NCBI RefSeq assembly: GCF_005503555.1
Contig: NZ_SCNG01000002.1
Coordinates: forward strand, 1-64,000
DNA: 64,000 nt
Direction of reading: 5' to 3'
Source of the DNA: Rudaea sp. 3F27F6
GTDB lineage: Bacteria; Pseudomonadota; Gammaproteobacteria; Xanthomonadales; Rhodanobacteraceae
Of the stretch, positions 7,217 through 54,167 are shown piece by piece (positions within the stretch are counted from its first letter, which is position 1; each line of letters starts with the position of its first letter). The translations under genes and the position numbers were made by a program. Below the pieces are notes generated by a model. That model saw nothing but the letters and a program-made list of their open reading frames with translations. It had not been told where the DNA came from and made no database searches.

Positions 7217-7235
7217 CCCCCGGCATAACCGGGGG
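7217..7235. terminator. Hairpin CCCCCGG-N5-CCGGGGG
   Basis: A 7-bp GC stem lies just after the DUF486 remnant stop. There is no clear T-run on either strand. It may be the old terminator of that gene. Confidence 0.4.
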
Positions 7236-7276
7236 TTGTCTCAATACCGAGTTGCAAATGTCGTTTCCGAGTTGTC

Positions 7277-35414: not shown

Positions 35415-36503
35415 TCACCGATCCAGAAACAGTTCGCCGATGGTGAGCGCGAGCGGATAAGGCTGGTAGTCGTTGCGGTTGCTGAGGACGATCACGGCAA
35501 GATGCTGCTTCGGCCAGCGCACGATGACGTTGCGGAATCCGATGCTCTCGCCCGAATGCCACACCGTGTCGCCGCTGAGGCGCCAGCCGAACCCATAGTC
35601 GACGTCGGGGTCGGCGATCGGATCGGTCGGCGTGAACGCCAGCTTGCGCGATTCGGCATTCAACAGTTTGTCGGTGTACAACGCGGCATCCCATTTACCC
35701 AGATCGTCGACCGACGAATAGATGCCGCCGTCGCCGCGCGTCGCACTGGTGATGCTCTGGTCGGTTCGCGTCCACTTGCCGTCGGCCTCGCTGTAGCCGT
35801 AGGCGCGGTTCGCCACTTCGGGACCGCGGCCGTGTTCGTACATCAGCGTATGTTCCATGCCGAGCGGCTGGAAGATGCGCTTCTTCATAAAGTCGGCCAG
35901 ATCCATGCCGGAGACGCGTTGAACGATCAGGCCGAGCAGAACGAAGCCGCCGTTGCTGTAGCGATGCGCGCTGCCGGGCTCGAAATACAGCCGCTGCTGC
36001 GAAGCAATCATCTTCAGCACGTCGTTGTCGTCGAGCTGAGTCTTGCGCTCGGGTGGAACCAGGTCTTCGTAGTCGATCAATCCGCTGGTGTGGGTCAGCA
36101 AATTGAGCAGCGTGATCTTGGCGTCGCTGGGCGGCAGCTCGGGCAGCCACTTGCGCACCGGGTCTTCGAGCCTCAGCTTGCCGTCCTGTTTCAGCAACAG
36201 GATGCTGGCCGCGGTGAACTGTTTGGAGACCGATGCGAGGCGGTAGTTGGTTTCCGGTCCGGCCTTGATACGGTCTTCCAGATTCGCGTAACCGAATCCT
36301 CGCCGGACGATGGCTTTGCCGTCCTTGACCACGAGCAGCGATGCGCCCGCGCCGTCGCCGGCGTAGCGGCTCATCAAGCTGTCGATATCGGCGCGATTCG
36401 CCGTTGCCGTCGATTGCGCATGCGCGCAGACGGCGAGCATCAGCCAGGCCAACGCGGACGCGACGACACTTCCACGCACGATCGATGCGGCGTTCTTAAT
36501 CAC
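35415..36503 (-). CDS. Serine hydrolase, class C beta-lactamase fold (operon gene 5)
   Basis: 362 residues from a GTG at 36503 that overlaps the stop of the preceding gene by 8 bp. A signal peptide ends CAHAQ near residue 30. Active-site motifs are SVSK (S91-K94), YSN in HRYSNGGFV, and WHSGES near the C terminus in the KTG position. As with its neighbours, the family covers D-aminopeptidases, DD-peptidases and esterases. It is the last gene of the operon starting at dgcN (41399), which places it with D-glutamate and DAP enzymes. A role in trimming D-amino-acid peptides in the periplasm is a reasonable inference, not shown. Confidence 0.9.
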   Translation of the reverse strand: MIKNAASIVRGSVVASALAWLMLAVCAHAQSTATANRADIDSLMSRYAGDGAGASLLVVKDGKAIVRRGFGYANLEDRIKAGPETNYRLASVSKQFTAASILLLKQDGKLRLEDPVRKWLPELPPSDAKITLLNLLTHTSGLIDYEDLVPPERKTQLDDNDVLKMIASQQRLYFEPGSAHRYSNGGFVLLGLIVQRVSGMDLADFMKKRIFQPLGMEHTLMYEHGRGPEVANRAYGYSEADGKWTRTDQSITSATRGDGGIYSSVDDLGKWDAALYTDKLLNAESRKLAFTPTDPIADPDVDYGFGWRLSGDTVWHSGESIGFRNVIVRWPKQHLAVIVLSNRNDYQPYPLALTIGELFLDR

Positions 36504-39375: not shown

Positions 39376-40362
39376 TTATTCGCCCCAGAACCCCGGCGAC
39401 GGCGGCATCAGCCTGCTTCCCTGCAGGCGGACGCCATCGGGGTAATCATTCGCCAGCCACAGCGGTCCGTCGAGGTCGATAAAGTCCGCTTCGCGCGCGA
39501 TTTCCAGCGCCGGCGCGATGCCGAGCGACGAACACACCATGCAACCGACCATGATGCCGAAACCGCCGGCTTTGGCTGCGCGCAACAGACGCCAGGCTTC
39601 GGTCAGGCCGCCGGTTTTATCGAGCTTGATATTGATCGCTTGATAGCGGTTTGCCAGCGCGGGCAGGTCCGCCGCGGTATGGCAAGACTCGTCGGCGCAG
39701 ATCGGAATCCGGCTCGAAAATTCAGCGAGCGCATCGTCCGCGTCCGCAGGCAGCGGTTGTTCGAGCAGGCTGACGGAGAGGCGTTCGAGCGCCGGCTGCG
39801 CGTCGCGCAAGATATCGATCGTCCAGCTTTCGTTCGGATCGACGATAAGCCGCGCCGAAGGCGCCGCACGCCGCACGGCTTCGATGCGCGCAACAGGATC
39901 GTCGCCGTCGACTTTGATCTTGATCAAACCGGCATCGGCGATGCGCGCCGCGGCCTTCTGCATTTCCTGCGGTGTATCGATGACGACCGTCAGCGCGGTC
40001 ACCAGCGGCAAATGCGGCGGCCGCGCCAGTCGGTTCCAGACGGGCACGCCGCCGAGGCGCGATTCCAAGTCCCACAGCGCCGCATCGAGCGCATTGCGTG
40101 CCGCGCCGGGACCGAGGCGCGCCTGCAATTCTTCGCGCCCCATGCCGGCGCAAAGCTCGTGCCGCAGCGCTTGCATTTCTTCGATCACCGCCGCGACGGA
40201 TTCGCCGTAGCGCGCATAGGGAACGGATTCGCCGCGGCCGATGCAACCCGCCTGATCGAGTTCGACCGTCACCACGTCCGCCGCGTGTTTCACCCCGCGC
40301 GCGATGCGGAACGGCGATCGCAACGGCAAGCTGCGATGCTGGATGCTCAATCCGCGCAACAT
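39376..40362 (-). CDS. dgcA: Enolase-superfamily dipeptide epimerase / N-acyl-glutamate racemase-like enzyme (DgcA-like)
   Basis: 328 residues from the ATG at 40362, overlapping the end of dgcN by 16 bp. It starts with the capping domain (SIQHRSLPLRSPFRIARGVK). The barrel has the first catalytic lysine in KIKVDGDDP, metal ligands in DPNESW, LLEQPL and ICADES, and the second catalytic lysine in INIKLDKTGG. This is the L-Ala-D/L-Glu epimerase (YcjG) group. When paired with a DUF1611 protein, homologues have been described as DgcA, racemising N-acetyl-D-glutamate to N-acetyl-L-glutamate. Both readings concern D-Glu. The symbol follows the DgcN pairing and should be treated as provisional. Confidence 0.85.
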   Translation of the reverse strand: MLRGLSIQHRSLPLRSPFRIARGVKHAADVVTVELDQAGCIGRGESVPYARYGESVAAVIEEMQALRHELCAGMGREELQARLGPGAARNALDAALWDLESRLGGVPVWNRLARPPHLPLVTALTVVIDTPQEMQKAAARIADAGLIKIKVDGDDPVARIEAVRRAAPSARLIVDPNESWTIDILRDAQPALERLSVSLLEQPLPADADDALAEFSSRIPICADESCHTAADLPALANRYQAINIKLDKTGGLTEAWRLLRAAKAGGFGIMVGCMVCSSLGIAPALEIAREADFIDLDGPLWLANDYPDGVRLQGSRLMPPSPGFWGE

Positions 40363-41399
40363 GAAAGCAGATTGTCCACGATGACCTCGACGCCCATGGT
40401 GACCGGGTCCTGGCAAGGCAGGCCGAGCCGGTCGCTGATCTCGCGACAGGCGATCAGCGCCTGACGCTCCGGCAGGTTGGACGTGTTGAGTGCGACCCCG
40501 ACCGCCTTGACCGCGGGATTGGTCAGGCGCGCAGCGGAGAGATTCGCTTCGAGGCAACGCACCAGATCGGGAATGGGATAGTGCGGCAGCCCGCGCATGT
40601 GACTGCGCGTCGGTTCATGGCAGAGCACCAAGGCATCGGCCTGCGATCCGTGAAGCAGGCCGAGCGACACGCCGGCATACGACGGATGGAACAACGAGCC
40701 CTGTCCTTCGATCAGATCCCAGCCACCGTCCTCGCGCGCCGGTGAGATCAGTTCGGCCGCGCCGGAGATGAAATCGGAAATCACCGCATCGACCGGGAGA
40801 CCGTCGCCCGCGATAAAGATGCCGGTCTGTCCGGTCGCACGAAAATCCGCGGCGACGCCGCGGCTGCGCAGGCTGCGCTCCAGCGCAAGCGTGGTATACA
40901 TTTTCCCGACCGAGCAGTCGGTGCCCACGGTCAGCAGACGGCGGCCTGCGCGCTTGCGGCCATTGCCGACGGAGAGTTTTCGATTCGGTTCGCGCGCATC
41001 GAACAGCACCCGGCCGTTGCGCCTGGCTGCGGCCACGATCTCCGCGTTGTCGCGCAGCTTCTGGTGCAGGCCAGCAATCACATTGAGGCCGGCATCGAGC
41101 GCAGCGACGATATCGGCCACGGTCTCCTGAGCCATCACGCCGCCGGCATTCGCCGTGCCGACGACCATCGTATTCGCGCCGGCGGCCACCGCCTGCGCCG
41201 GCGTCATGTCGGGCAATCCGAGCGTCTGGTTGCAGTCGCTGCGCCGATGCTGGCCGATGCACGACTCAGGCCGCCAATAGGCCAGGCCGCGCGCGGTCTT
41301 GATGGCCAGATCGTCGGCCGCGCCGCCCAGGTAAAGCAGGTAGGGTGGTCCCCAAACAGTCTGCGCGGCTGCTCCGCCTTCATTAGTCATGAAATCCAT
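40347..41399 (-). CDS. dgcN: DUF1611 protein, DgcN-like (D-glutamate N-acetyltransferase family)
   Basis: 350 residues. The N-terminal domain (YLLYLGGAADDLAIKTARGL ... ANTMVVGTANAGGVM) is typical of DUF1611. The C-terminal P-loop-like domain begins GTDCSVGKMYTTLALERSLR near residue 158 and continues with ATGQTGIFIAGDG and IEGQGSLFHPSYAGVSLGLL. Members paired with a dipeptide-epimerase-like enzyme have been described as DgcN, acetylating D-glutamate as the first step of D-Glu catabolism. An alternative ATG at 41390 is possible. It is the first gene of a five-gene operon preceded by a conserved LysR-type promoter (41439-41506) and divergent from a LysR gene. Confidence 0.87.
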   Translation of the reverse strand: MDFMTNEGGAAAQTVWGPPYLLYLGGAADDLAIKTARGLAYWRPESCIGQHRRSDCNQTLGLPDMTPAQAVAAGANTMVVGTANAGGVMAQETVADIVAALDAGLNVIAGLHQKLRDNAEIVAAARRNGRVLFDAREPNRKLSVGNGRKRAGRRLLTVGTDCSVGKMYTTLALERSLRSRGVAADFRATGQTGIFIAGDGLPVDAVISDFISGAAELISPAREDGGWDLIEGQGSLFHPSYAGVSLGLLHGSQADALVLCHEPTRSHMRGLPHYPIPDLVRCLEANLSAARLTNPAVKAVGVALNTSNLPERQALIACREISDRLGLPCQDPVTMGVEVIVDNLLSCCAD

Positions 41400-41438: not shown

Positions 41439-41506
41439 AGGATAACCAGCGGCCGGCGCCAGCCACCAATGAAAAGACCGGCACGAGGCATAACTCAGGG
41501 TTGTGG
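41439..41506 (-). promoter_or_regulatory. Shared promoter module, copy A (dgcN operon)
   Basis: In gene direction: CCACAAC-N5-GTTATG (palindrome ATAAC-N5-GTTGT at 41490-41504), then TTTTCATTGG (ending 41466), then after 21 bases TATCCT (-10, 41444-41439). The four copies in this window share order and exact spacing. The -10 lies 40 bp before the ATG at 41399. Confidence 0.85.
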
Positions 41507-41623
41507 TCGTCTTCGTCCCGCGCGTCGAACCGATCGGCGCGCAGTGTGACGTTTGCCTTACAGTCGTAAATTGTGCTCGACTCCGGCAGCGACGCCGCCG
41601 GGCAAAATTGTTGGGGAAGCCAC

Positions 41624-42526
41624 ATGCACTTGCGTTACATCGAACTCTTTCACGCCGTGTTGACCACCGGCAGCATCACTGGCGCAGCGAAGCTGTTGAA
41701 CATATCGCAGCCGGCGGCGAGCAAGGCGATGCAGCACGCCGAAGACCGGCTCGGCTTTGCCCTGTTCAGTCGCGTGCGCGGGCGCCTGCAGCCGACGTCC
41801 CAGGCGATGCTGCTGCGCGACCGGATCGAGAAGATCATCCAGGACGTGCACGACCTGGAACGTCTTACCAAAAATATGAGCCAGCCGGGAAGCTGTCCCC
41901 TGCGGGTGACTTGCACGCCGACTCTCGCCCTGACTTTGCTCGCCGATGCGACGGCGCTGTTGCGCAAGGCCGTGCCCGACGTGACGGCCGAGCTGTCCAC
42001 GCAACATTCCGCGGCGATGTGCGAGTCGCTGTCGCTGCGCGATACCGATATCGGACTCACCTTGCAGGACACCGGCCATCAGAACCTGCGCCAGCGCGTG
42101 CTGTGCCGCGGACAAGTCATGGTGATCGCTCCGCCGGGCTGGTGGCCCGAGGCGGAATTGAGCCAGCCGCTGTCGATCGGCGCACTGGCGAATCAACCGA
42201 TGATCGGCATCACCGTGCGCGACGCGCTCGGCAATATGCTGCAGAGCCACCTCGCCAAGGTCGATCCGGCGCCGCGAATCACCGTCTGGGTGCAGACCTA
42301 TCAGCTTGCCCATTCGCTCGTCGCCAAGGGCGAAGGCCTGGCGCTGGTCGATCCGTTCACGGCGCGCTGCGGCGGTATGCACAGCGTGCAGATGCGCCCG
42401 CTGAAACCGCATCTCGACGTCATCCTGTATGCGATGCACCGGCCCGACAATCCTTTGAATCCGGTGCAGAAGCGATTCCTCGATCTGGTACGGCAGCTCG
42501 CTCAACGCATGCTTGCGCAACGCTAA
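41624..42526 (+). CDS. LysR-family regulator, probable controller of the D-amino-acid peptide locus
   Basis: 300 residues from the ATG at 41624 (GGGGAAG upstream). The HTH (about residues 4-62: RYIELFHAVLTTGSITGAAK, LLNISQPAASKAMQHAEDRL) and a LysR substrate-binding domain (RVTCTPTLALTLLADATALL onwards) are complete. It is divergent from the dgcN operon across a 224-bp region that contains a palindrome of the T-N11-A type (41490-41504). The same element recurs in front of three further units (42.7, 44.2 and 53.7 kb). The simplest model is that this protein binds all four sites and responds to D-glutamate or a related metabolite. Binding is inferred from position and motif class. Confidence 0.9.
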   Translation: MHLRYIELFHAVLTTGSITGAAKLLNISQPAASKAMQHAEDRLGFALFSRVRGRLQPTSQAMLLRDRIEKIIQDVHDLERLTKNMSQPGSCPLRVTCTPTLALTLLADATALLRKAVPDVTAELSTQHSAAMCESLSLRDTDIGLTLQDTGHQNLRQRVLCRGQVMVIAPPGWWPEAELSQPLSIGALANQPMIGITVRDALGNMLQSHLAKVDPAPRITVWVQTYQLAHSLVAKGEGLALVDPFTARCGGMHSVQMRPLKPHLDVILYAMHRPDNPLNPVQKRFLDLVRQLAQRMLAQR

Positions 42527-42867
42527 AACATTTTCAATTCAAGGGCTGACAGACTCGCCCTATTCCGCTCTTCGGGCAGCTCAAAAATTTTACTTCCCTG
42601 GCGCATAGCGCGGGGCGAGGTGCCGAAGATGGAAGGGGGCGCTGTTGTAAGCAGATAAATCGAAGATGCTCCAACACCGAGAACGAAGATGCACCGCCTG
42701 GGCAGATACATCCACAACATAGAGTTATGCCTTGCCTAGGTCTTTTCATTGGCCGTCTGCCGCGTCTGAAGTTTATTCTCCGCTCTCCGCGCGGTGATTC
42801 GAAACGAAGGACTGCGCAAACGGCGCGTGCTCATTTGTCGAGCGGCTCACGAACGAAGGCGGTTGGC
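42527..42867. other. Intergenic region, 341 bp, with shared promoter module
   Basis: This holds copy C of the shared promoter at 42712-42779. No gene is supported in it. Confidence 0.6.
42712..42779 (+). promoter_or_regulatory. Shared promoter module, copy C (serine hydrolase gene)
   Basis: CCACAAC-N5-GTTATGC (42712-42730, palindrome 42714-42728), TTTTCATTGG ending 42752, then after 21 bases TATTCT (42774-42779). The geometry is identical to the copy before dgcN. The predicted transcript start is about 80 bp before the ATG at 42868. Confidence 0.85.
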
Positions 42868-44085
42868 ATGAACATCGGGCGCATGCTGCGGATGTGCACG
42901 GGATGCCTGTTTTTCATTGCCGCTGCGGCGCGGGCCGACAGCCCGGTTGCGAGCGTGCGCATCGGCTTCGATCGCGACGGCATCACTTCGGTACAAGCGG
43001 AAGGCTTTGCCGACAAGGCGGCGGCGCGCAGGATCACCGCCAACGATCCGGTGCGCGTCGCCTCGATTTCCAAACTGGTGACCATGCTCGGCGTGATGCG
43101 CCTCGTCGAGGCGGGCAAGCTCGACCTCGACGCCGACGTCTCCCGCTATCTCGGATGGAAGCTGCGCAACCCGGCGTTTCCGAACGCGCCGATCACCCTG
43201 CGCATGCTGGTGTCGCACCGGTCCAGCCTCACCGACGCCGCCGGCTACTGGCAGACCCCGCTCGACGGCCGCCTGCGCGACACGCTCGACAATCCTCGTG
43301 CATGGGACAGCGAACACGCACCGGGAACCTACTTTCGCTACACCAATCTCAACTTCCCGGTCGTGGCGCAGGTCGCAGAGCGCATCACCGGCGAGCGCTT
43401 CGATCGGCTGATGCAGCGTCTGGTGCTCGCGCCGCTCGGCATCGACGGCTGCTTCGGCTGGGACACCTGCGGCGAAGCGACCGCCGCCCGCGCGGCGGTG
43501 CAATACGACACCGACGGCAAACCGATCATGGACGACAACCGCGGCCGCAAACCGAGTTGTCCGGTCAGGCCCGCGCGCAACGGCGGCTGCGACTTGTCGC
43601 ACTATCGGCCGGGCGAGAACGGCGCCTTGTTCGGCCCACAAGGCGGCCTGCGGATTTCGGCAGTCGATCTCGCGCGCATCGGCATGCTGCTGCTCGGCGA
43701 CGGGACACTCGCCCTCAACGGCGTGCATCTGCTGAAGCCGGCCTCCGTGCAGGCAATGGCCACGCCGCTCTGGGAATACGACGGCCGCAACGGCCTGACC
43801 TATGAGGAAGACAGCGCCGACCATCAACCGGGCTTCTTCTGCCGCTGGGGCATGGGCATGCAGATTCTCGCTACGCACGGCGAAAATTGCCGCGACGACC
43901 CGTTCGGCGACCGTGTCGCCCGCATCGGCCACTCCGGAACGGCTTACGGCTTGCAGGCCGGGATGTGGCTCGACCGCGAACGCGGCACCGGCGTGATCTG
44001 GTTCGCCACGGGCATGCCCGAAGAACGCGTCGGCGGACGTTCCGCGTTCAGCGTCCTCGAAGAAAAACTCGCGCGCGAGCAGTGA
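42868..44085 (+). CDS. Serine hydrolase, class C beta-lactamase fold
   Basis: 405 residues from the ATG at 42868. A signal peptide ends AAARADS near residue 24. Active-site motifs are SISK (S66-K69), YTN in FRYTNLNFPV, and IGHSGTAYGL in the C-terminal motif. Between them lies a Cys-rich insert (GCFGWDTCGE, CPVRPARNGGCDL, FFCRWG, GENCRDD) that should form disulphides; this is unusual for class C relatives and may define the substrate pocket. It is driven by copy C of the shared promoter, which groups it with the dgcN operon, ggt-gltS and the Oar-like receptor. A periplasmic D-peptidase or amidase role is inferred. Confidence 0.9.
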   Translation: MNIGRMLRMCTGCLFFIAAAARADSPVASVRIGFDRDGITSVQAEGFADKAAARRITANDPVRVASISKLVTMLGVMRLVEAGKLDLDADVSRYLGWKLRNPAFPNAPITLRMLVSHRSSLTDAAGYWQTPLDGRLRDTLDNPRAWDSEHAPGTYFRYTNLNFPVVAQVAERITGERFDRLMQRLVLAPLGIDGCFGWDTCGEATAARAAVQYDTDGKPIMDDNRGRKPSCPVRPARNGGCDLSHYRPGENGALFGPQGGLRISAVDLARIGMLLLGDGTLALNGVHLLKPASVQAMATPLWEYDGRNGLTYEEDSADHQPGFFCRWGMGMQILATHGENCRDDPFGDRVARIGHSGTAYGLQAGMWLDRERGTGVIWFATGMPEERVGGRSAFSVLEEKLAREQ

Positions 44086-44187
44086 CCGGCGATTTGAGCG
44101 GTCAAAACCGCGGAAAAAAAAAACAGCACATCAAAAAATCGGCATCGATTCGAAGACGCACGAATCGGCCCGTTCGCGGCAACCCAC

Positions 44188-44255
44188 CCACAACCTCAAG
44201 TTATGCAAAGCACCGACGTTTTCATTGGCGGCGGGTTCGCTCACGTGCCTATGCT
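44188..44255 (+). promoter_or_regulatory. Shared promoter module, copy D (TonB remnant-ggt-gltS)
   Basis: CCACAAC-N5-GTTATGC (palindrome 44190-44204), TTTTCATTGG ending 44228, then after 21 bases TATGCT (44250-44255). The spacing equals the other copies. It reads toward ggt. Confidence 0.85.
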
Positions 44256-44583
44256 GGGGGCACAAGTTAGGGCCGGAGACCGATCGACTCTCATCGGTGC
44301 GAAACTGCGCCTGGCTGCCGGAAAACAAAAATATGTCGGGAGATCAAGAACACATCTTTTGGTTACTTACGATCAGCCGTTTCCCGGCAAATGGATTTTC
44401 GATGTCGCGGCGAACTACAGCGTGAACCGGTTGAAGTTCACCCTCGGCGTGGACAACCTGTTCAATACCTATCCGAGCAAGGTGATTGCCGCGAACAACA
44501 ACGGCGCGTTTCCCTACCCCGGCGTTTCGCCTTTCGGTTACGAAGGTGCGTACGTCTACGGCAAAGTCCAATATCGCTGGTAA
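44203..44583 (+). pseudogene. C-terminal remnant of a TonB-dependent receptor
   Basis: The last 70 codons (about 44371-44583) read as the end of a TonB-receptor barrel: PFPGKWIFDVAANYSVN, LKFTLGVDNLFNTYP (the conserved NLFN motif), FGYEGAYVYGKVQYRW with the final aromatic. Plug, signal peptide and most of the barrel are missing. The apparent ATG at 44203 lies inside the promoter module, upstream of the predicted transcript start, so the open frame upstream of 44371 is not a real N terminus. An internal deletion has joined the receptor's promoter to its tail. The stop is 18 bp before ggt, showing the original order receptor-ggt-gltS. Confidence 0.8.
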
Positions 44584-44601
44584 GGTCTTCGGAGCATAAA
44601 T

Positions 44602-46338
44602 ATGAGCAACCGCCTCATGCCGCTATCGCACACGCAATCCCGCAACCCGTCGTGGCCGCATCGACTCGCCCTCGCGGCTATCGTCGTCGCGCTTTGCTCA
44701 CCCGTGTTTGCGCGCGATACCGGCACGACGACGAAAACAGCCGCAATCGCCAGCGCCAACGCGCACGCCACGGAGGCCGGCTTCAGCGTGCTCGCCGAAG
44801 GCGGCAACGCGATGGACGCGGCGATCGCGGTCGCCACGTCGTTGTCGGTGCTGCAGCCGGAAGCGTCCGGCATCGGCGGCGGCTTTCTCGCCTTGATCCA
44901 CGATGCGGCGAGCGGCAAAGATACGTTTATCGACTCGCGCGAGATGGCGCCGGCGGCGGTGAAGTCGGCGGACTATCTCAATACGGACGGCACGCCCAAT
45001 CGCGACACGTCGCTCAACGGTCCGTTGGCCGCGGGCATCCCGGGATCGCCTGCGGGCCTGGCCTATATTGCGCAACATTTCGGCAAGCTGCCGCTGAAGA
45101 AATCGGTGCAGCCCGCGATCGACTTCGCCGAAAAAGGAGTCCACCCGACTTCGGCGCTCGTGCATTCGATCGAACACCGCGCCGACGTGCTGCGCCGCTA
45201 CGCCGCGTCGACGGCCAAGTTTTTCCCGAACGGCAAAGCGCCGACAACGGGCGACATCTTTCGTGACCAAGCGCAGGCACGCACGCTGAGGATTTTCGCG
45301 GAAAAAGGCGCCGACGGTTTCTACAAAGGCGAAGTCGCCGAAGAAATGGTCGCGGCGGTAAAAGCGGCCGGCGGCACCTGGACGACGACCGATCTCGCGA
45401 GCTATCAAGCCAAGGAGCGCAAGCCGATCGAGCTGACCTACAACGGCTTCAAGATCCTTACGGCACCGCCGCCGTCGGCGGGCGGTGTCGTCGTCGGCGA
45501 GGTGCTGAACATACTTGCCGGCATCGATTTGCAGGGTCTCGATCAGGCCCACCGCATCCATTACGAAGTCGAAGCGATGCGCCGCGCCTATCGCGATCAC
45601 AACGAATATCTGGGCGATACCGATTTCGTGAAAGTGCCGATGGACATGCTGCTGTCGCCCTACTACGCGGACGGATTGCGCCAAAGCATCCTGCCCGAGC
45701 AGGCGACGAAATCCGAATGGCTGCCGGCCGCACATGCGCCGGAAGCGGGCATGCACACCACGCATTTCTCGATCATCGACAAGGACGGCAACATGGTGTC
45801 GATGACTTGCACGGTCAACACCACGCTGGGCTCCGGATTCGTCGCAGGCAAGAGCGGCGTGCTGCTCAATAACGAGATGGACGACTTCGCCCTGGTACCC
45901 GGAAAGCCGAACGCCTACGGCCTGATCGGCGGCTCCGCCAACGCCGCGGTAGCGGGCAAACGCATGCTGTCGGCAATGACGCCGAGCTTCGTCATCGGCA
46001 AGGACCGCGTCGCCGTCATCGGCTCGCCTGGCGGCTCGACCATCATGACCCAAGTGCTCGAAGGCATGCTCGCTTTCATCGACGGCAAGAGCGCACCCGA
46101 GATCACTGCGCAGAAGCGCTTTCATCATCAGTACCTACCCGATCGCATCGACGTCGAAACCGGCAGCCTGCCCGCCGACGTGATCGAAAAACTCAAAGCG
46201 ATGGGCTACGCCATCCACGACCGCGAATCGTGGGGCAATATGAATGTGGTGGTCTGGGACAAGACCACGAACACGAAGACGGCGGCGAGCGATCCGCGCA
46301 GCAAAGACGGTCTCGGCAAGGTGCAGGCGGTCCGTTGA
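44602..46338 (+). CDS. ggt: Gamma-glutamyltransferase
   Basis: 578 residues with a signal peptide (cleavage after PVFAR near residue 38), so a periplasmic enzyme. The large-subunit features include NAMDAAIAVATSLSVLQPEA and the glutamate-binding arginine in IDSREMAP. The autocatalytic cleavage site and nucleophile threonine are in GMHTTHFSIID (T386). The small subunit has CTVNTTLGSGF, NNEMDDF and the oxyanion region IGSPGGSTIMTQ. All are intact. It hydrolyses gamma-glutamyl bonds (glutathione, gamma-Glu peptides) or transfers the glutamyl group. Release of glutamate next to the GltS gene 22 bp downstream makes a scavenging unit. It is transcribed from copy D of the shared promoter. Confidence 0.95.
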   Translation: MSNRLMPLSHTQSRNPSWPHRLALAAIVVALCSPVFARDTGTTTKTAAIASANAHATEAGFSVLAEGGNAMDAAIAVATSLSVLQPEASGIGGGFLALIHDAASGKDTFIDSREMAPAAVKSADYLNTDGTPNRDTSLNGPLAAGIPGSPAGLAYIAQHFGKLPLKKSVQPAIDFAEKGVHPTSALVHSIEHRADVLRRYAASTAKFFPNGKAPTTGDIFRDQAQARTLRIFAEKGADGFYKGEVAEEMVAAVKAAGGTWTTTDLASYQAKERKPIELTYNGFKILTAPPPSAGGVVVGEVLNILAGIDLQGLDQAHRIHYEVEAMRRAYRDHNEYLGDTDFVKVPMDMLLSPYYADGLRQSILPEQATKSEWLPAAHAPEAGMHTTHFSIIDKDGNMVSMTCTVNTTLGSGFVAGKSGVLLNNEMDDFALVPGKPNAYGLIGGSANAAVAGKRMLSAMTPSFVIGKDRVAVIGSPGGSTIMTQVLEGMLAFIDGKSAPEITAQKRFHHQYLPDRIDVETGSLPADVIEKLKAMGYAIHDRESWGNMNVVVWDKTTNTKTAASDPRSKDGLGKVQAVR

Positions 46339-46360
46339 CGACGGCATCCGAAGAACGCGC

Positions 46361-47575
46361 ATGCTGACGCTCGACCCGATTCAGACTCTGGCCGCCGGCG
46401 GCTTGTGCCTGCTTGCCGGCTATGCCATCCGGCGGCGGCTGCCGCAGCTTGCGCGGTTCAACATCCCGGCGTCGGTGATCGGCGGTCTGCTCGTCGCTCT
46501 TGCGCTGCTCGCGTGCCGGCATTGGGACGCCGTGCCGGTGCAGTTCGACACGACGCTGGAACGGCCGCTGATGATCGCGTTCTTCACCAGCATCGGTTTC
46601 AACGCGAGCGTAAGCCTGCTGCGGATCAGCGGCCGCCAGGTCGCGCTGTTCCTCGGTCTCGCCACTTTTCTCGCCGTGGTGCAGAACGTCGTCGGCATCG
46701 GTTTGGCCAAGGCCTTCGGTCTGTCGCCGCTGTTCGGCGTCGTTGCCGGATCGGCGACGCTGACCGGCGGACCGGCGACCGGACTGGCGTTTGCGCCGCT
46801 GTTCGAACAGGCCGGCGTGGTCGGCGCGAAGAGCATCGCGCTGGCCTCGGCGATGGCGGGCATCGTCATCGGCTCGATCGTCGGCGCACCGCTGGCGACG
46901 ATGCTGATCGAGCGCCACAAACTCGCGCACGCCGGATCGGCGGCGGCAGCGAGCAGCGCCGCGTCGGAAACGCCGGCAGCCGCGGCGGCAAGTAACACAG
47001 GCAGCACAAACGAGCGGCTTCCGCACGGACTCAAAAGCCTCGTGCTGCTGCTCGTGGCGATGGGGCTCGGCGCATGGGTCAGCGACGGTCTGCACGCGCT
47101 CGACCTGACCATGCCGAGCTATATCGGCGCGATGCTGGTCGGCGCCGTGATGCGCAATATCGACGACCATTTCGGCTGGTTCGGTCTTTCCGTGCCGAGC
47201 ATCGACACGATCGGCAGCATCTGTCTTTCGCTGTTTCTCGCCGTCGCCCTGATGGACCTGCATCTATGGGAACTCGCCGGCGTGGCGACGCCGCTCCTGG
47301 TCAACCTCGGCGTGCAGACGATCATCGTCGTGGCTTTCTGTTGCTGGCCGCTGCTGCAGCTGATGGGGCGCGACTACGATGCCGCGGTCATGACCGGCGG
47401 CTTTGCCGGATTTATGCTCGGCATCACGGCGAACGCGATGGCCGTGATGGATTCATTGACCGAGCGTTTCGGGCCCGCTCCGAGGGCATTCCTCGTCGCG
47501 CCCCTGGTCGGCGCGTTTCTGATCGATTTCACCAACGCGATTGTGATTACGTTCTTTATCAATGCGTGGAAGTGA
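46361..47575 (+). CDS. gltS: Sodium/glutamate symporter GltS
   Basis: 404 residues with about ten membrane segments in two inverted halves. The family repeats are FFTSIGFNASVSLLRISGRQ, the pore loop GSATLTGGPATGLAFAPLFE in the first half, and MTGGFAGFMLGITANAMAVM in the second. An Ala/Ser-rich cytoplasmic loop (about residues 190-223) separates them. GltS takes up L- and D-glutamate with Na+, which fits the D-Glu enzymes of the locus. The ATG at 46361 follows the ggt stop by 22 bp, in the same transcript. Its partner role is to import glutamate freed by Ggt and the serine hydrolases. Confidence 0.93.
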   Translation: MLTLDPIQTLAAGGLCLLAGYAIRRRLPQLARFNIPASVIGGLLVALALLACRHWDAVPVQFDTTLERPLMIAFFTSIGFNASVSLLRISGRQVALFLGLATFLAVVQNVVGIGLAKAFGLSPLFGVVAGSATLTGGPATGLAFAPLFEQAGVVGAKSIALASAMAGIVIGSIVGAPLATMLIERHKLAHAGSAAAASSAASETPAAAAASNTGSTNERLPHGLKSLVLLLVAMGLGAWVSDGLHALDLTMPSYIGAMLVGAVMRNIDDHFGWFGLSVPSIDTIGSICLSLFLAVALMDLHLWELAGVATPLLVNLGVQTIIVVAFCCWPLLQLMGRDYDAAVMTGGFAGFMLGITANAMAVMDSLTERFGPAPRAFLVAPLVGAFLIDFTNAIVITFFINAWK

Positions 47576-47647
47576 CGCCCAGGTCTTCCGCCATGCTCAG
47601 CAACGCCCGAACGTAACTCTTGTTTGAACCTGTCGCAAAATTTACGC

Positions 47648-47783
47648 CGTTCGTGTTGAGCGTAGCGGAGCGCAGTTCCGCGAAGTCGAAACACCACGAT
47701 CAATGCGACCTCCGACCCCTTCGATTTCGGCACTCCGCGCCGTAGCCTGTCCTGAGCGAAAGTCGAAGCGCTCAGGGCGAACG
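47648..47783. repeat. Intergenic palindromic (REP-like) element with imperfect terminal inverted repeats
   Basis: CGTTCG-N3-TGAGC (47648-47661) pairs with GCTCA-N3-CGAACG (47770-47783). The interior has further short inverted pieces of the GAGCG..AGTCGAA type familiar from dispersed elements in gammaproteobacteria. It sits between convergent gltS and dat and may serve as a transcript end. Confidence 0.6.
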
Positions 47784-47787
47784 GAGT

Positions 47788-48651
47788 TCAGCCCGCTTCG
47801 CGTTTCTTGAGCGCCTGAAACTCTTCGAACACGCGGCGCCAGAGCGGGCCCGGCTGGCCCGTGCCGACAACCTTGCCGTCGAGCCGCGTGACCGGCAGCG
47901 CTTCCCGCGTCGAACTTGCGATCCAGATTTCGTCCGCGGCCAACAACTCGTCTCGATGCACTTCACGCACGTCCAGCGGCAAGCCGAGCGCGTCGAGTAC
48001 ATCGCCGACGACGAGGCGCGTGATGCTCGGCAGACGTTCGCGGCCGGGCGGCGGCGTGACGATGCGATCCTGCTTCACCACGAATACAGCACTCGACCCG
48101 CCTTCGGCGAGAACGTCGCCGCGCAGCAGGATCGCTTCGTCCGCGTCTTGCTGCGCGGCCTGCATGCGCAGCAGCACCGGACCGAGCAACGAGATCGACT
48201 TGATGTCGCAACGCGACCAGCGGATATCTTCCAGCGTCGCCGCCGCAATGCCTTGCTGCAATGACGCAGGCTGCGGCTCCTTCAGCCGCCAGCAGAAGCC
48301 GAAGACCGTCGGCTTCATATCCGCTTCGGGCAAAAAATCGCGGCCGCGGCCGGTGCCACGCGTGACCTCGAGATAGATGCCCATATCGCCGCCGCCGTTC
48401 GCGGCGATCAGTTCGTGCACGAGTTCGAGCCAGCGTGCGCGCGGGTAAGGATCGGCGATCTGCAGCGCATCGAGGCCCGACCGCAATCGTTCGAAGTGCG
48501 CCTCCAGGCGAAACGGCTTGCCGTTGTAGCTCGGCACGACTTCATAGACGCCATCGCCAAACAGGAAGCCGCGATCGAACGGCGAGATGCGCACCTCGTG
48601 GGTGGCGACGATGGCGCCGTCGAGCAAGGAGTAAGGAAGTGCGTCGGTCAT
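47788..48651 (-). CDS. dat: D-amino-acid transaminase (class IV aminotransferase)
   Basis: 287 residues with the DAAT pattern: EVRISPFDRGFLFGDGVYEV near residue 19, LEVTRGTGRGRDF, the PLP lysine in DIKSISLLGP (K151), and EAILLRGDVLAEGGSSAVFV with the PLP-contacting glutamate. The SISLLG text after the lysine matches D-amino-acid transaminase better than BCAT or ADC lyase. It interconverts D-amino acids and 2-oxoacids, typically D-Ala + 2-oxoglutarate with D-Glu + pyruvate, in the cytosol. It is convergent with gltS and followed by a TPR-sulfotransferase on the same strand. In this locus it supplies or consumes D-Glu, linking D-Ala to the Dgc route. It is not preceded by the shared promoter. 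Confidence 0.9.
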   Translation of the reverse strand: MTDALPYSLLDGAIVATHEVRISPFDRGFLFGDGVYEVVPSYNGKPFRLEAHFERLRSGLDALQIADPYPRARWLELVHELIAANGGGDMGIYLEVTRGTGRGRDFLPEADMKPTVFGFCWRLKEPQPASLQQGIAAATLEDIRWSRCDIKSISLLGPVLLRMQAAQQDADEAILLRGDVLAEGGSSAVFVVKQDRIVTPPPGRERLPSITRLVVGDVLDALGLPLDVREVHRDELLAADEIWIASSTREALPVTRLDGKVVGTGQPGPLWRRVFEEFQALKKREAG

Positions 48652-48696
48652 TTCAGCAATGCAGTGGACAGTGGTGAGTGGAATTGGAGTTCACGT

Positions 48697-50313
48697 TCAT
48701 TCCAACGCAACCCCGGCAGCCTGCAGGCGCTCGCGCAGCCGATCGAGCTTGTCGCCGTAGCGCGCGCTGCGCGCGGTGTCGCGGCGCAGCGGTTGGCGCA
48801 CCTGCGCCGCACTCGGCGCGCTCAGCACGGCGCGCGAGGTCTTGTGGAATTCGAGGCAGGCGGGATCGAACGGCAGATCGCAGAATTCCAGCAGGCGGCG
48901 AATTTCCGCTTCCGGTTCGGCCTGCAGGGTTTCGTACTGAAGATCGAGCACACGCTCGGGAAATTGTTCGCGCCAGAAACGCGTGAGGCGCAGGAAGTCA
49001 ATGCAGTAGTCGGCCAGTTCGTCGAGATCGCAGGCAAAACTGCTGCGTTCGCTGAAAAGCTGACGGAAGCACGCGAGGCACGTCTCCACCGGATCACGGC
49101 GAATGATCACCACGCGCGCCGCCGGCAGCATCGCCAATGCCGCGCCGACGAGATACCAGTTGAGCAGGCTTTTGTCGGTGAAGCGCGGCCGCGTCCGGCG
49201 CCAGCGTGCGGTTCGCGCAAGATAATCGCGACCGAGGCGCTGCCAATCCTCCGCCGTCGCATCAGGCACCCAGAGCGGGAATGCCGAATTGCGCCGCCGC
49301 GTTTCCGCGTCGATGATCTCGGTCATGTCCTTGATCTCGTTCGCGCCTTCGACCTGCGGATGCGAAGCGAGGATCTGCTCGACCAGGGTCGAACCGGAAC
49401 GCGGAATGCTGACGATCAGGATCGCTTCGGCACCGAGCCGGTCGTCCAACGGCGATGGCGTTCCGTCGGCAAACACGCGCTGGATTTCCTCGACGCGCTT
49501 GCGCTCGCCCGCGGCGTCCCACGTCACTCGCCGGCGCCGCGAGGCATTGGCGGTGCGGAACGCTTCGAACGCCTGCGCATAGTCGCCCTGGTCTTCGAGT
49601 GCTTTTGCGTAGCTGAAGCCGAGCAACTCGCGTGAACGCGGCGGCAAGTCCTGACGCGTCAAAGCGCGCTGCAAAGACACGACATCGGCCGCGTCGAAGC
49701 GCACCGTGTTGAGATTCGACAGGCCGAACCAGCCTTCCGCATTGCCGGGGTCGCGGCGCAGCAGTTCGCGGAATCCCGCGATCGCGGTGTCGATCTCGCC
49801 GAGGCTCGCCTGCGCCTTGGACAAGGACAGCCGCGCCGATACATGCGCGGGATCGAGCTCGAGGGCGCGGCGCAGCGCGACGACCGCTTCGCCGGTATGC
49901 ACTTGCTGCACGAGTGCCTCGCCGAGATTGAACCAGGCCGATGCGGAGCGAGGGTCCAGCGCACACGCCTGGCGCAGATGCTGCACCGCATCCGCGGTTT
50001 CGCCGCGCTCGTGCAGCGCGATGCCGAGGCAGACGTGAATGTCGGAGTCGTCGGGATGCGCTGCCAGCACGCGCCGGAAACAGTCGATCGCGCGCGCGTG
50101 ATCGCCAAGACGCTGGACCGCCATGCCGAGCATGCGCACCGCACTCAGCTCGTCGGGGGCCAACGCGAGCACGTTGGACAACGAGTGTTCCGCGGCGGCG
50201 AAATCGCGGCGCTCCCACTCCTCTTTCGCGCGCGCCAGCATGCGCGCGGCGGTGCGCGAAAGCGGTGCGCGCGAGGCGTTCTGCGCAAGTCGTGGATCTG
50301 TGTGCGGCGTCAT
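48697..50313 (-). CDS. TPR-containing sulfotransferase family protein
   Basis: 538 residues. The first 240 form about six TPR repeats (LGMAVQRLGDHARAIDCFRR, LGIALHERGETADAVQHLRQ, LGEALVQQVHTGEAVVALRR). The C-terminal 270 are a sulfotransferase domain with the 5'-PSB loop in VSIPRSGSTLVEQILASHPQ near residue 297 and the 3'-PB region in VVIIRRDPVETCLACFRQLF near residue 397. Such fusions occur beside TonB receptors in Xanthomonadales and sphingomonads; their acceptors are unknown. The gene is immediately downstream of the Oar-like receptor gene on the same strand, separated by that gene's terminator, and starts 45 bp upstream of dat. No signal peptide is present. Confidence 0.88.
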   Translation of the reverse strand: MTPHTDPRLAQNASRAPLSRTAARMLARAKEEWERRDFAAAEHSLSNVLALAPDELSAVRMLGMAVQRLGDHARAIDCFRRVLAAHPDDSDIHVCLGIALHERGETADAVQHLRQACALDPRSASAWFNLGEALVQQVHTGEAVVALRRALELDPAHVSARLSLSKAQASLGEIDTAIAGFRELLRRDPGNAEGWFGLSNLNTVRFDAADVVSLQRALTRQDLPPRSRELLGFSYAKALEDQGDYAQAFEAFRTANASRRRRVTWDAAGERKRVEEIQRVFADGTPSPLDDRLGAEAILIVSIPRSGSTLVEQILASHPQVEGANEIKDMTEIIDAETRRRNSAFPLWVPDATAEDWQRLGRDYLARTARWRRTRPRFTDKSLLNWYLVGAALAMLPAARVVIIRRDPVETCLACFRQLFSERSSFACDLDELADYCIDFLRLTRFWREQFPERVLDLQYETLQAEPEAEIRRLLEFCDLPFDPACLEFHKTSRAVLSAPSAAQVRQPLRRDTARSARYGDKLDRLRERLQAAGVALE

Positions 50314-50368
50314 ATCGTCAACGTCTTCAAGTCAAAGCAACAGGCTACACAAGACGCTCGACGTCCAC

Positions 50369-50399
50369 AAAAAAACGCCGGGCCAATCCCGCCCGGCGT
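50369..50399 (-). terminator. Rho-independent terminator of the Oar-like receptor gene
   Basis: ACGCCGGGC (50375-50383) pairs with GCCCGGCGT (50391-50399). On the minus strand the stem is followed by T7. It lies 20 bp after the receptor stop. Confidence 0.9.
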
Positions 50400-50419
50400 G
50401 GAGACACGGCTTGCACTCT

Positions 50420-53400
50420 TCAGAAGTCGTAGGCGACGGACAGTCGGACATAGCGCGGCGGCTGCGAGTCCTGGATCATTCCGTAGGTCGGGTTCGGGTT
50501 GGACGTCGATCTGAAGCTGTCGCCGTAATACAGCGCCGTCTGGTTGTTGAACACGTTGAGGACAGCCAGATTGAAATCGAGCTTGTGGTCGGCCCAGTTC
50601 GGCCTGTAGTCCACGTTGAGACCGAGCTGATGGTTCCACGGCAGGCGGCCTAGCGAACCCGGCGGAACCGGCACACCGCCGCACCAGTAATACGTATTGG
50701 AACCATGCAGGGCAACCTGGTCCACGCCGTAGCGGCCGCGGCACATGCGCGGTGTGCCGGAGGCGACGTACAGATTGCCGCCGAGCGTCCATTCCGAAGT
50801 GAGCGCATACGCGCCGAAGATTTTGAGCTGGTGCTTGCGGTCGTTCGGCAGGAGGCCATTGGAATATTCCATTCTTTCCGGGAAATCCCAGGCGGTAGTG
50901 AGCGACTCGTAGGAACCGCCCTGCGCAGAATACGTGCTCACCGGTCCTTCGGTGTTGCCCCAAGTGCGCGAGAACACATAGTCGATCTTGGCGAACCACT
51001 TGCTGTCCCAGGTATGTTCCAGCGACAGATCGATCGAGTAGTAGCGGCGCTTCGGGCCCATCGGAAAACCCTGATCGGCGGCGGTGAACTTCACCGGGAC
51101 GAGGCTTCCGTCCGGCGCCTTCATCAGCAGGTTGTTGGTCGCACCGGGGTTCATCAGGACCAGACTCTGCGCCCACTGATCACAGGTTTCCGCCGTCATC
51201 CAGGCATAACCCTGAGCGCGTCCGGCGGCGCACTCGTTCTGGATCGCGTCGACGTCGTCGATGATGCGGTTCATGCGCTGGTACGTGCCGGTCGCGCCGA
51301 ACGTCCAATTCGTGCCGAGCATCTCGAACTGCTGCTGGATGCCGAAAACGAAGTTGTCGGAGAACTCGGCCTTGATGTTCTGCGCAGCGGAGATGCGCGG
51401 GTCCTTGGCCTGGCCGTACTCGCTGTCGATCGACACGCCCGTCCCCGGATTTTGCGGCAGCGGCGTGAAACCGATCGGCTCGCCGGTGGTCGGGTTGATG
51501 CCCGTGTAGGTGCCGTAGACGCCCGCGTTGGTCACCGGCGCGGCGATCGACAATGCCACATTGGCCGGCAGCGCCAGATAGTAACGGCCGGCATTGCCGA
51601 ATATCTTCAGGCTGGAATCGCCGTGCACGTCCCAACTGAAGCCGAGGCGCGGCGCCCACTGCGGTTTGGTCTCGCGGATGTAGGGCACGCCCGAACCGTC
51701 GTAATTGACGAACGAATCGTCACGGATGCCGAGGTTCAGCAGCAGGTTCGGCGTGACTTGCCAGTTGTCCATGATGTACGCGGCGCGCTGCGCCACGCGC
51801 ACCGAGGCGGCCGAGATATCGACGTGCTTCTGCACGTAATAGCATGGAATCTTGCCGTTGGGACCCGCGACGCTCGCGCACTGCGTCGACGGCCCGACAT
51901 ACGGCGGCACGTTGGGGTCGACGCCGAACACCGGTTGACCGGCCGTACTCGTGCCGTAGATCCACTGATAACCGGGTCCCGGATTCACCGAGCCATCGTT
52001 GAGATCCTGGGAGTTGATATTGTCGATGCCAAACTGGAGTTGGTGGTTGCCGAGTTTCCACTCCAGACTCAAGCGGTAATTGGTCACCGTTTCCCGATGA
52101 TTCGGATCGGCGATCGACGAGTTGCCCTGCGCGTTCTTGATGCCGCCGGGCGGCACGAATGCCGGGTCCTGGAAGGATGCGCTGGCAACGTGCGGCAACG
52201 ACGGATCGTAACCGGGATAGCCGGGCTGCGTCGTGTAGTACTCGCCGTGCATCTTGCCGAACATCGCGTTCAAGGTCAGGTTGTCGGTGAGATAGGACGT
52301 GTAATTCGCCACCCACATGCGGAAAGCGGTCTTGGTGGTCTGGTCGAGAGCGTTGAAGCCGCCGCGCTGCAAGCTGCCGTAGTCGAAGTCGTAAATCGTC
52401 CCCCAGGTCTTGTGCTCGTTCTGCAGGCCGGTGAGGCTGAAGACGTTGGCGTCGTTGATGTTCCAGTTGATCTTGGCGTAGACCTTGGGATCGTGCTGGG
52501 TCACGTTTTCCGTGGTGGCGCCACTGCTGGCGAAAGACGTCGTCGTCCGGTAATGGGTGTTGTCCTGCTCGACGCCGAGGAAGAAGAACAGCTTGTCCTC
52601 GATGATCGGGCCGCTCACGTAGGCATCGTAGGTCGTTTCGTCGTGGCCGTTGTTCTTGCGGAAATAGGCCAGATTGCCGACCTTGTTGGCGCCCGTCGTC
52701 AACAATGGATTGGCATAGTAGTAATTGATCGGATCGTCGCGCAGGCTGCCCGGCTGCCACAGCGCGCGTGCGCCGAAATGCCACTCGTTCGAGCCGCTCT
52801 TGCCGATCTGGTTGACCACGCCGCCGATCGAGCGGCCGTAGCGGGCGTCGTAGCCGCTGATATAGGTCTGCTGCTGCTCGATGGCGCCGTACGGCAGGGA
52901 GACGCCGCCCATATTGTTGAGCAGCTCCGTGGTATTCATGCCGTCCACGTAGTAGGCATTCTCGGCCGCGGAAGCTCCGCCGAAGACCAAGGTCGGCGTG
53001 CCCAACGGGCCGGTGCCCAACTCGGCCGAAGCCATGTTGACGCCCGGCGCGAGCATGGCGATGTCTTCGGCGGTGCGCGCAATCGGCAACTGCTGCAATT
53101 GTTTCGCCGTGATCGTCGTCACCTGATTGGTGGTGGACACGTCGATGGTGGCGACCTGCCCGACGACCTTGACCGTGCCGAGTGTCTCGGACGATGCCGC
53201 CGCGCCCTTCTTGCCGAAGTCCACCGCGACCGCGCCTGCGGCCACCGGGCTCACATCGTTGCGCGATTCCACGACCTTGCCGTCCTGCAACAGCGAAACG
53301 GTATACGTGCCGACCGGCAGCGTGACCGAATATTTGCCGTTGGCATCCACTTCGACGGTGCGATTGAAACCCGCGCCGCCGGTGATCTGGATCGTTTCAC

Positions 53401-53557
53401 CGGCAGCCGCCGGAACCGTACCGTAGATGGTGCCGTTGGTCGCCTGCGCCCACAGCGTACCTGTGAAGCCCAAGGTGACCGATCCGATGGCAAGTGCCAG
53501 CGCTTTGCGCCGAAAGACGTTTTTGCGATACGCCGAACGCAGGGACGTGCCCTTCAT
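50420..53557 (-). CDS. Oar-like TonB-dependent receptor with carboxypeptidase-regulatory-like domain
   Basis: 1045 residues from the ATG at 53557 (GGGAGT upstream), with a signal peptide ending LWAQ near residue 38. A carboxypeptidase-regulatory-like beta-sandwich (about residues 40-100: ANGKYSVTLPVGTYTVSLLQ) precedes the plug (TAEDIAMLAPGVNMASAELG, NAYYVDGMNTTELLNNMGG) and a large barrel ending PPRYVRLSVAYDF. This is the Oar/CirA-like class common in Xanthomonadales and linked to peptide or oligosaccharide uptake. It is under copy B of the shared promoter and so belongs to the same regulon as dgcN, ggt and the serine hydrolase. The likely cargo is peptides or peptidoglycan fragments. Confidence 0.9.
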   Translation of the reverse strand: MKGTSLRSAYRKNVFRRKALALAIGSVTLGFTGTLWAQATNGTIYGTVPAAAGETIQITGGAGFNRTVEVDANGKYSVTLPVGTYTVSLLQDGKVVESRNDVSPVAAGAVAVDFGKKGAAASSETLGTVKVVGQVATIDVSTTNQVTTITAKQLQQLPIARTAEDIAMLAPGVNMASAELGTGPLGTPTLVFGGASAAENAYYVDGMNTTELLNNMGGVSLPYGAIEQQQTYISGYDARYGRSIGGVVNQIGKSGSNEWHFGARALWQPGSLRDDPINYYYANPLLTTGANKVGNLAYFRKNNGHDETTYDAYVSGPIIEDKLFFFLGVEQDNTHYRTTTSFASSGATTENVTQHDPKVYAKINWNINDANVFSLTGLQNEHKTWGTIYDFDYGSLQRGGFNALDQTTKTAFRMWVANYTSYLTDNLTLNAMFGKMHGEYYTTQPGYPGYDPSLPHVASASFQDPAFVPPGGIKNAQGNSSIADPNHRETVTNYRLSLEWKLGNHQLQFGIDNINSQDLNDGSVNPGPGYQWIYGTSTAGQPVFGVDPNVPPYVGPSTQCASVAGPNGKIPCYYVQKHVDISAASVRVAQRAAYIMDNWQVTPNLLLNLGIRDDSFVNYDGSGVPYIRETKPQWAPRLGFSWDVHGDSSLKIFGNAGRYYLALPANVALSIAAPVTNAGVYGTYTGINPTTGEPIGFTPLPQNPGTGVSIDSEYGQAKDPRISAAQNIKAEFSDNFVFGIQQQFEMLGTNWTFGATGTYQRMNRIIDDVDAIQNECAAGRAQGYAWMTAETCDQWAQSLVLMNPGATNNLLMKAPDGSLVPVKFTAADQGFPMGPKRRYYSIDLSLEHTWDSKWFAKIDYVFSRTWGNTEGPVSTYSAQGGSYESLTTAWDFPERMEYSNGLLPNDRKHQLKIFGAYALTSEWTLGGNLYVASGTPRMCRGRYGVDQVALHGSNTYYWCGGVPVPPGSLGRLPWNHQLGLNVDYRPNWADHKLDFNLAVLNVFNNQTALYYGDSFRSTSNPNPTYGMIQDSQPPRYVRLSVAYDF

Positions 53558-54167
53558 GATTCGTACTCCCCAATCGTGGAAACTCAAGTGATGTCGTCTT
53601 GATGCGGCAATGACGGGTTGCCGCACCTTGTTGTCGGAATTCCACGCGGCCGCATGCGCATGACGTCTGCGAGCCGGCCGCATTGCAGTACCGTTTGAGA
53701 ATACTCATCGCCCAAGCGCAGGAACCAATGAAAAGACCAGCACCCGGCATAGCTGTGGGTTATGGTTTTTCATCGATTGCCGCGGCGCATCATCCTTTGG
53801 AAAACCGCGATCTGACGCGGAAATTCGTCGGTCTGCGCAAGCGCGGGCGCGTGCGGTTCGGCAAGCAAGAACCGTCTCTACAAGCCGATGCCTAGCCGAT
53901 ACGATCTTCGCCGTCTCGCAGCGATCGGCATGCCTTTGGACGGCTGAAATCGCCAGGCTTGGGAGCGACGGTCACTGCGCAGCTAGCGCGTTTTTCACGC
54001 CATCGGAATACGGTGTGCTGCGCATGGATGGGAATGACAACGACGTAGGGCCGGCTGCAGCTACGGCGCGGGGTCACGCGGGCATTGGGCAATCCGTTCG
54101 AGAGCAAACAACTTGCAGCTGATATCCCGCCCGATCGGGCATGCCATCGAGTAGTTCGGAGAACAGA
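53558..54167. other. Divergent intergenic region, 610 bp
   Basis: This holds copy B of the shared promoter (53698-53765) for the receptor. The rest, up to the M61 peptidase start, shows no supported gene. Confidence 0.6.
53698..53765 (-). promoter_or_regulatory. Shared promoter module, copy B (Oar-like receptor)
   Basis: On the minus strand: CCATAAC-N5-GCTATGC (palindrome 53749-53763, ATAGC-N5-GTTAT on the plus strand), TTTTCATTGG ending at 53725, then after 21 bases TATTCT (53703-53698). The geometry matches copies A, C and D. The -10 is 140 bp before the ATG. Confidence 0.85.

Follow-up and report, generated by a model that had tools for sequence, protein, structure and literature searches.

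The closest described system is the DgcR-dgcN-dgcA system of Pseudoalteromonas, whose defining paper, Yu et al. 2023 (ISME J), reportedly presents DgcR as an activator of dgcNA; in strain CF6-2, dgcR is annotated beside dgcN and dgcA. A second relevant LysR-family regulator, OccR of Agrobacterium, has the consensus ATAA-N7-TTAT. Passages of PMC5002191 place the highest-affinity site of OccR, which acts in octopine regulation, at -64, describe 15-bp inverted repeats with a 5-bp gap (ATATC-n5-GATAT) at predicted centers of -64 and -43 for E. coli LysR-lysA, and give the first repeat of LysR-family systems as lying near -64 and the second near -43 or -33. Here, we analyze four copies of a 68-bp promoter layout in Rudaea sp. 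3F27F6, together with the LysR-type regulator gene that lies among them. All are found in the window, by which we mean the 64,000-nucleotide stretch at positions 1-64,000 of contig NZ_SCNG01000002.1, forward strand. Our best explanation as a whole, to which we assign a probability of about 0.83, is that a DgcR-type LysR protein activates four units for the import and use of cell wall peptides.

An earlier examination of the letters alone, hereafter the sequence-only reading, had claimed four 68-bp sites with a single spacing, and all four read exactly as claimed, at the same coordinates and on the same strands. Read directly, each consists of a first box CCAYAAC-N5-GYTATGC, 12 bases, the block TTTTCATTGG, 21 bases, and TATNCT, with the bases between these blocks varying from site to site. 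The four sites are packed into 12.3 kb and are listed below with the regulator; profile E-values refer to a sequence profile built from 93 sites of other genomes, with the window sites left out.

Site 1: 41439..41506, minus strand, upstream of dgcN; box at 41488-41506; exact match; profile E 2.5e-19
Site 2: 42712..42779, plus strand, upstream of a serine hydrolase; exact match; profile E 3.4e-11
Site 3: 44188..44255, plus strand, upstream of a TonB-receptor remnant, ggt and gltS; exact match; profile E 5.1e-12
Site 4: 53698..53765, minus strand, upstream of an Oar-like TonB receptor; exact match; profile E 8.0e-15
LysR-type regulator, DgcR homologue, proposed activator: 41624..42526, plus strand; Pfam HTH_1 and LysR_substrate; 31% identity to CF6-2 DgcR

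The first box, found at all four sites, is an ATAA-N7-TTAT box of the T-N11-A type, as the sequence-only reading had it; the same box also occurs in the loci of distant homologues. None of the four window sites has a TTGACA-like hexamer 17 bp before TATNCT. The letters CTATGCT might conceivably be read as a sigma-S promoter element.

We show that, within this genome, the architecture is confined to these four positions. With up to three mismatches, the full pattern found nothing else in the window and gave 0 matches in 100 dinucleotide shuffles, while the 40-bp core, searched at the same tolerance across the whole genome (5,704,709 bases), recovered the four window sites only (0 for the reversed-pattern control). 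The 93-site profile returned the same four sites from the genome (E 2.5e-19 to 3.4e-11; 150 of 1943 first-look candidates scored), the next match having an E-value of 0.05. This weak match, at 7210-7239, was dismissed as a GC-rich hairpin, CCCCCGGTTATGCCGGGGG, that mimics the first box and is possibly a terminator. Exact copies of the first box alone number four in the genome, all at the window sites. Since matches with one or two mismatches do not exceed the reversed control (61 matches in all at up to two mismatches, versus 164), the first box is unusable alone as a genome-wide probe. The genome scan that the sequence-only reading had proposed as a check thus yielded no fifth copy, and the whole architecture does not stand in front of many unrelated genes. 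The four-site observation is correct and far beyond chance. The genome holds four DgcN-family genes, and the motif is present only at the window copy.

Comparison with related genomes showed that the architecture recurs across Rhodanobacteraceae before equivalent genes. Of 60 relatives (the window genome included), 36 belong to its own family and 24 to other families of the order. Allowing up to three mismatches, the core was present in 11 genomes, all of the window's family, and in none of the 24. A near-exact form was scanned against a named genome collection (84,980 species), which gave 66 stretches of at most 8 kb each. Many are titled Rhodanobacteraceae or Rudaea, Dyella, Rhodanobacter, Frateuria or Fulvimonas, and the remainder are from Luteimonas and from metagenome-assembled genomes titled Proteobacteria, Gammaproteobacteria, Lysobacterales, Lysobacteraceae, Steroidobacteraceae, Hydrocarboniphaga and Aquitalea. 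Together with the window, these stretches hold 101 distinct sites at up to five mismatches and 99 at up to four. Their exact first boxes number 91, of which 83 are accompanied by the block, the other eight being reverse-strand readings of listed sites. The first box and the block were the criteria by which the stretches were chosen, so their conservation is in part a product of that choice. TATNCT played no role in it, and 82 of the 94 usable sites from outside the window carry these letters exactly 21 bp downstream of TTTTCATTGG (six of six letters in 67, five of six in 15), while eleven other spacings gave 0-5 sites of the 94. Columns beyond the search pattern are also conserved, and the consensus extends to GTC-TTTTCATTGG-TGGC and TATGCTCG.

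The regulator itself has an N-terminal HTH_1 domain and a C-terminal LysR substrate domain in about 300 amino acids, which is the domain plan of the LysR family. Its predicted structure (mean predicted local distance difference test score 87.7) matched LysR-family proteins in all 50 PDB matches listed; these matches are generic and do not identify an inducer. In a pairwise comparison only, it is 31% identical to CF6-2 DgcR over 287 amino acids (E 1.5e-47). Its best NCBIfam model is PRK11013, at 130.7 bits and hence below the equivalog cut-off of 288, compared with 590.7 bits for E. coli LysR.

Presence of this regulator closely tracks presence of the motif. LysR matches at E<=1e-30 occur in 12 of the 60 relatives; the ten at 68% identity or more all come from genomes with the motif, and the two at 35-38% from genomes lacking it. 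Across 147 family genomes, the window's LysR (E<=1e-60) was detected in 29 and the motif in 32; all 29 genomes with the regulator carry the motif, which is found in only three of the 118 without it (Fisher 1.2e-27, relatedness ignored). Six genera include genomes with both and genomes with neither, so joint gain or loss probably happened more than once. DgcN-family genes are present in 19 of the 60 relatives, eight of which have no motif; with LysR found in 10 of the 11 motif genomes, the motif follows LysR more closely than dgcN. In the named stretches, the regulator is present in 35 of 66. One stretch from a contig titled uncultured Aquitalea (L097:3960-4149) has a 38% LysR homologue and two divergent sites, which precede a DppA-like gene and a D-amino-acid-dehydrogenase-like gene. 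These co-occurrences bear on the idea of a promoter cassette, mobile or duplicated not long ago, that is present in four copies with no regulator in common. Their packing into so short a segment would suit such an origin, which is nonetheless very improbable and already contradicted: the inter-block bases differ, the same layout precedes equivalent genes in many genera, and motif and LysR occur together. The sequence-only reading had likewise argued for conservation rather than recent duplication, and its proposal of one regulon under the adjacent LysR gains support from the uniqueness of the sites, from layout and targets kept across the family, from LysR co-occurrence, from DgcR homology, and from the similar arrangement upstream of CF6-2 dgcN.

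From these observations we infer binding, activation, an inducer and a physiological role as follows. As a DgcR-type transcription activator, the LysR protein would bind CCAYAAC-N5-GYTATGC through its ATAA-N7-TTAT core, centered about 65 bp before the transcript start, on the assumption that transcripts start about 7 bp after TATNCT. In the presence of inducer, it would contact the -43/-34 block TTTTCATTGG, which lies at the usual position of a -35 element, and RNA polymerase would then be recruited. By analogy with the LysR-family promoters described in passages of PMC5002191, whose positions are similar, the first box would be the recognition site and the place of the block fits an activation site. 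The lysR gene is divergent and starts 118 bp from the site 1 box, as in autoregulated pairs.

The block deserves separate consideration. The 147 family genomes gave 103 matches with up to three mismatches anywhere. Of these, 96 have a perfect block, 65 a perfect first box, and 99 an intact first-box core A3/A5/A6-T15/A16/T17. An asymmetric block that is as invariant as the operator core is unusual, and it raises the question of whether two factors are involved, in which case LysR would read the first box alone and TTTTCATTGG would be read by another DNA-binding protein or through an unusual contact with a sigma factor. The conservation figures would agree with such an arrangement, as would the lack of an inverted repeat in TTTTCATTGG and its poor match to the first box. 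We nevertheless regard a second factor as improbable, given that some two helical turns separate the block from the first box's right half, which puts it in the region where LysR regulators place their second dimer (passages of PMC5002191), that TTCATT in CF6-2 stands at the same distance from TATGCT, and that all 94 blocks in the named stretches, which were chosen for both elements, are accompanied by a first box matching in 9 or more of 14 letters. Within the first box, positions 4, 14 and 19 covary, falling mainly into the classes C-T-C (55 of 103), T-C-C (27) and T-T-G (10), with C at both 4 and 14 in a single site. Of the 22 T-C-C sites in the named set, 15 stand before an Oar-like receptor, and the other seven were left unclassified by that comparison.

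The genes behind the sites are the following.

dgcN, D-Glu (D-glutamate) N-acetyltransferase: 40347..41399 (listed open reading frame; family model from about 41345), minus strand; NCBIfam DgcN 520.6 bits, cut-off 480; 50% identity to CF6-2 DgcN
dgcA, N-acetyl-D-Glu racemase: 39376..40557 (listed open reading frame; family model residues 70-392), minus strand; NCBIfam DgcA 435.7 bits, cut-off 400
Second, stand-alone diaminopimelate (DAP) decarboxylase, LysA: 38043..39308, minus strand; TIGR01048 460 bits, cut-off 298
Serine hydrolase, beta-lactamase/AmpH-like superfamily: 36496..38058, minus strand; Pfam Beta-lactamase 9.5e-63
Serine hydrolase, beta-lactamase superfamily, behind site 2: 42835..44085, plus strand; Pfam Beta-lactamase 6.9e-45 on the longer open reading frame 42727-44085
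TonB-dependent receptor remnant, C-terminal end: 44370..44583, plus strand; 59% over 71 residues to the end of an 830-residue receptor in L110, E 8e-27
Gamma-glutamyltransferase (GGT): 44602..46338, plus strand; TIGR00066 433 bits, cut-off 358
gltS, sodium/glutamate symporter: 46244..47575 (listed open reading frame; family model from residue 42), plus strand; TIGR00210 328 bits, cut-off 311
Oar-like TonB-dependent receptor, behind site 4: 50420..53683, minus strand; Pfam OMP_b-brl_4 and Plug
TPR-sulfotransferase, next after the Oar-like receptor: 48697..50313, minus strand; Pfam Sulfotransfer_3 7.8e-40 and TPR
Class IV aminotransferase, best match D-amino-acid transaminase: 47788..48651, minus strand; TIGR01121 237 bits, under the cut-off of 277

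Judged from spacing and strand, these genes probably form four units: dgcN-dgcA-lysA-serine hydrolase; a serine hydrolase; receptor remnant-ggt-gltS; and receptor-TPR-sulfotransferase-aminotransferase. For the hydrolase of the dgcN unit, AmpH is the best NCBIfam match but lies far under the cut-off (86 versus 266 bits); for the other hydrolase, the start at 42835 is the first after site 2. The sequence-only reading had labeled the frame ending at 44583 a TonB remnant, and rightly so: lying between site 3 and ggt, it corresponds to the last 70 or so residues of a receptor that stands whole behind such a site in relatives. In a census of the 99 sites (the window's four included), with a gene start within 500 bp, targets were dgcN in 26, an Oar-like receptor in 23 and GGT in 14, with an aminotransferase, a serine hydrolase (the window's only) and a transglutaminase-like protein once each. 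Among 33 other sites, the 25 scanned with Pfam gave TonB plug domains in 14, amidohydrolases in seven, FAD oxidoreductases in two, both above the cut-off of the D-amino-acid dehydrogenase model, a peptide-binding protein in one, and one remaining case; of the other eight, two were not scanned and six had no open reading frame before the stretch ended, leaving 9 of the 99 targets unassigned overall. lysA is not a constant member, being in the same stretch in 6 of 28 dgcN stretches. Of 26 stretches with the Oar-like receptor, 18 have a TPR-sulfotransferase after it, and several of the others end too soon.

Since D-Glu, DAP and gamma-glutamyl bonds are handled together, the enzyme roles, assigned by homology, point to wall peptides as the food of this regulon. 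The four units would be switched on as a program that imports wall peptides and consumes D-Glu, DAP and D-alanine; if the aminotransferase of the site 4 unit is truly a D-amino-acid transaminase, D-Glu can also come from D-alanine, likewise wall-derived. Poly-gamma-glutamate as the substrate would account for GGT and DgcN but not for LysA, although lysA accompanies few dgcN genes. The inducer is most likely D-Glu or a derivative. It is also conceivable, if rather unlikely, that the same regulator controls the same regulon in response to meso-DAP or a DAP-containing muropeptide, as E. coli LysR acts on lysA, a view that conflicts with our best explanation on the inducer only. PRK11013, the best model of the window regulator, is matched by E. 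coli LysR at 591 bits; the dgcN operon includes a second DAP decarboxylase; and E. coli LysR responds to DAP (passages of PMC5002191). On the other hand, the two regulators are only 28% identical, PRK11013 is also the best match of CF6-2 DgcR and so says little, and dgcN is the commonest target, whereas lysA is found in so few of its stretches.

The case for D-Glu as the signal also touches on how these bacteria build their own wall. No MurI match was found in the genome, whereas MurL is present, and free D-Glu may therefore signal scavenged wall. MurL matches occur in 57 of the 60 relatives (39 over the cut-off), and MurI is over its cut-off in one, G053, which is one of the three genomes without a MurL match; 19 more have weaker MurI matches. 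At G000:C9, about 1.03 Mb (L134), MurL adjoins a bifunctional aspartokinase/DAP decarboxylase, which is the other LysA match over the cut-off, besides the stand-alone copy of the dgcN unit. We offer, tentatively and at somewhat less than even odds, the broader proposal that, with MurL in use and glutamate racemase lacking, free D-Glu is no wall-building intermediate here and that the DgcR-type LysR would have become specialized in sensing peptidoglycan, whether foreign or recycled. It would then command a wall-feeding program of several operons by way of a rigid two-part promoter, in which the activation element varies no more than the operator core does.

Several observations weigh against our best explanation. 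The first box is not recognizably repeated in TTTTCATTGG, and the regulator is distant from DgcR and under the cut-off of its best family. The three family genomes with the motif and no detected LysR are G009 (89% complete, 520 contigs), G159 (95% complete) and G094, in which the motif evidence is a single three-mismatch match. No LysR is seen in 31 of the 66 named stretches, many of which end short of it; one of them, L081, has a site but lacks both a LysR gene in its 8 kb and a match to TATNCT. Orthologous copies make up many of the sites, and the counts are therefore not independent. The route through DgcA would also require a deacetylase for its product. Additionally, the distance from box to CATT is 31 bp in CF6-2 versus 33 here, and in the two AT-rich Pseudoalteromonas loci chance alone would supply a box somewhere in the locus in about half of cases.

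Taken with these reservations, the locus provides a candidate operator and regulon, ready to be tested, for the use of bacterial cell walls as food that may occur in Rhodanobacteraceae. It bears on which receptors import wall fragments, on how D-Glu becomes L-Glu without a racemase, and on the meaning of D-Glu as a signal where it is not produced for the cell's own wall. A description of this regulon was not found in the literature searched (DgcN/DgcR, Rhodanobacter/Dyella LysR, site letters), with Yu et al. 2023 and subscription journals not excluded as sources of one.

Among the known systems, OccR, likewise a LysR regulator, is compared with the window regulator by its description, and its substrates are opines rather than cell wall compounds. 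E. coli LysR-lysA shares the best NCBIfam model and a lysA gene, but differs in its box letters, in protein sequence and in having a single biosynthetic target; a layout like that of the window sites was not found in the E. coli lysA-lysR spacer, either by eye or by profile. The closest likeness is to Pseudoalteromonas. When annotated plasmids were searched at the protein level, 11 records came back; Pseudoalteromonas dgcR accounts for two, with CF6-2 among the strains. The ATAA-N7-TTAT box is present in eight of nine distant LysR loci examined, six of which are GC-rich with at most 0.015 expected. Neither L052 nor L053 among these loci gave a profile match; the former has the box and the latter none. 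As in CF6-2, the window regulator adjoins dgcN-dgcA, with identities of 31% for LysR, 50% for DgcN and 45% for DgcA in one neighborhood. Upstream of CF6-2 dgcN, TATAAACATAGGTTATAG, TTCATT and TATGCTC follow one another in the order of the window sites, and the distance from CATT to TATGCT is 27 bp in both. In contrast to CF6-2, the window block TTTTCATTGG is longer than TTCATT, lysR is divergent from dgcN, and the set adds TonB receptors, GGT, GltS, serine hydrolases, a second LysA and a transaminase, in several units. The Pseudoalteromonas DgcR pathway is thereby linked to another bacterial group and to a much larger gene set: as a LysR regulon the system is ordinary in kind, the evidence for it is unusually clean, and it is larger in content than the CF6-2 neighborhood, an enlarged form of a known system.

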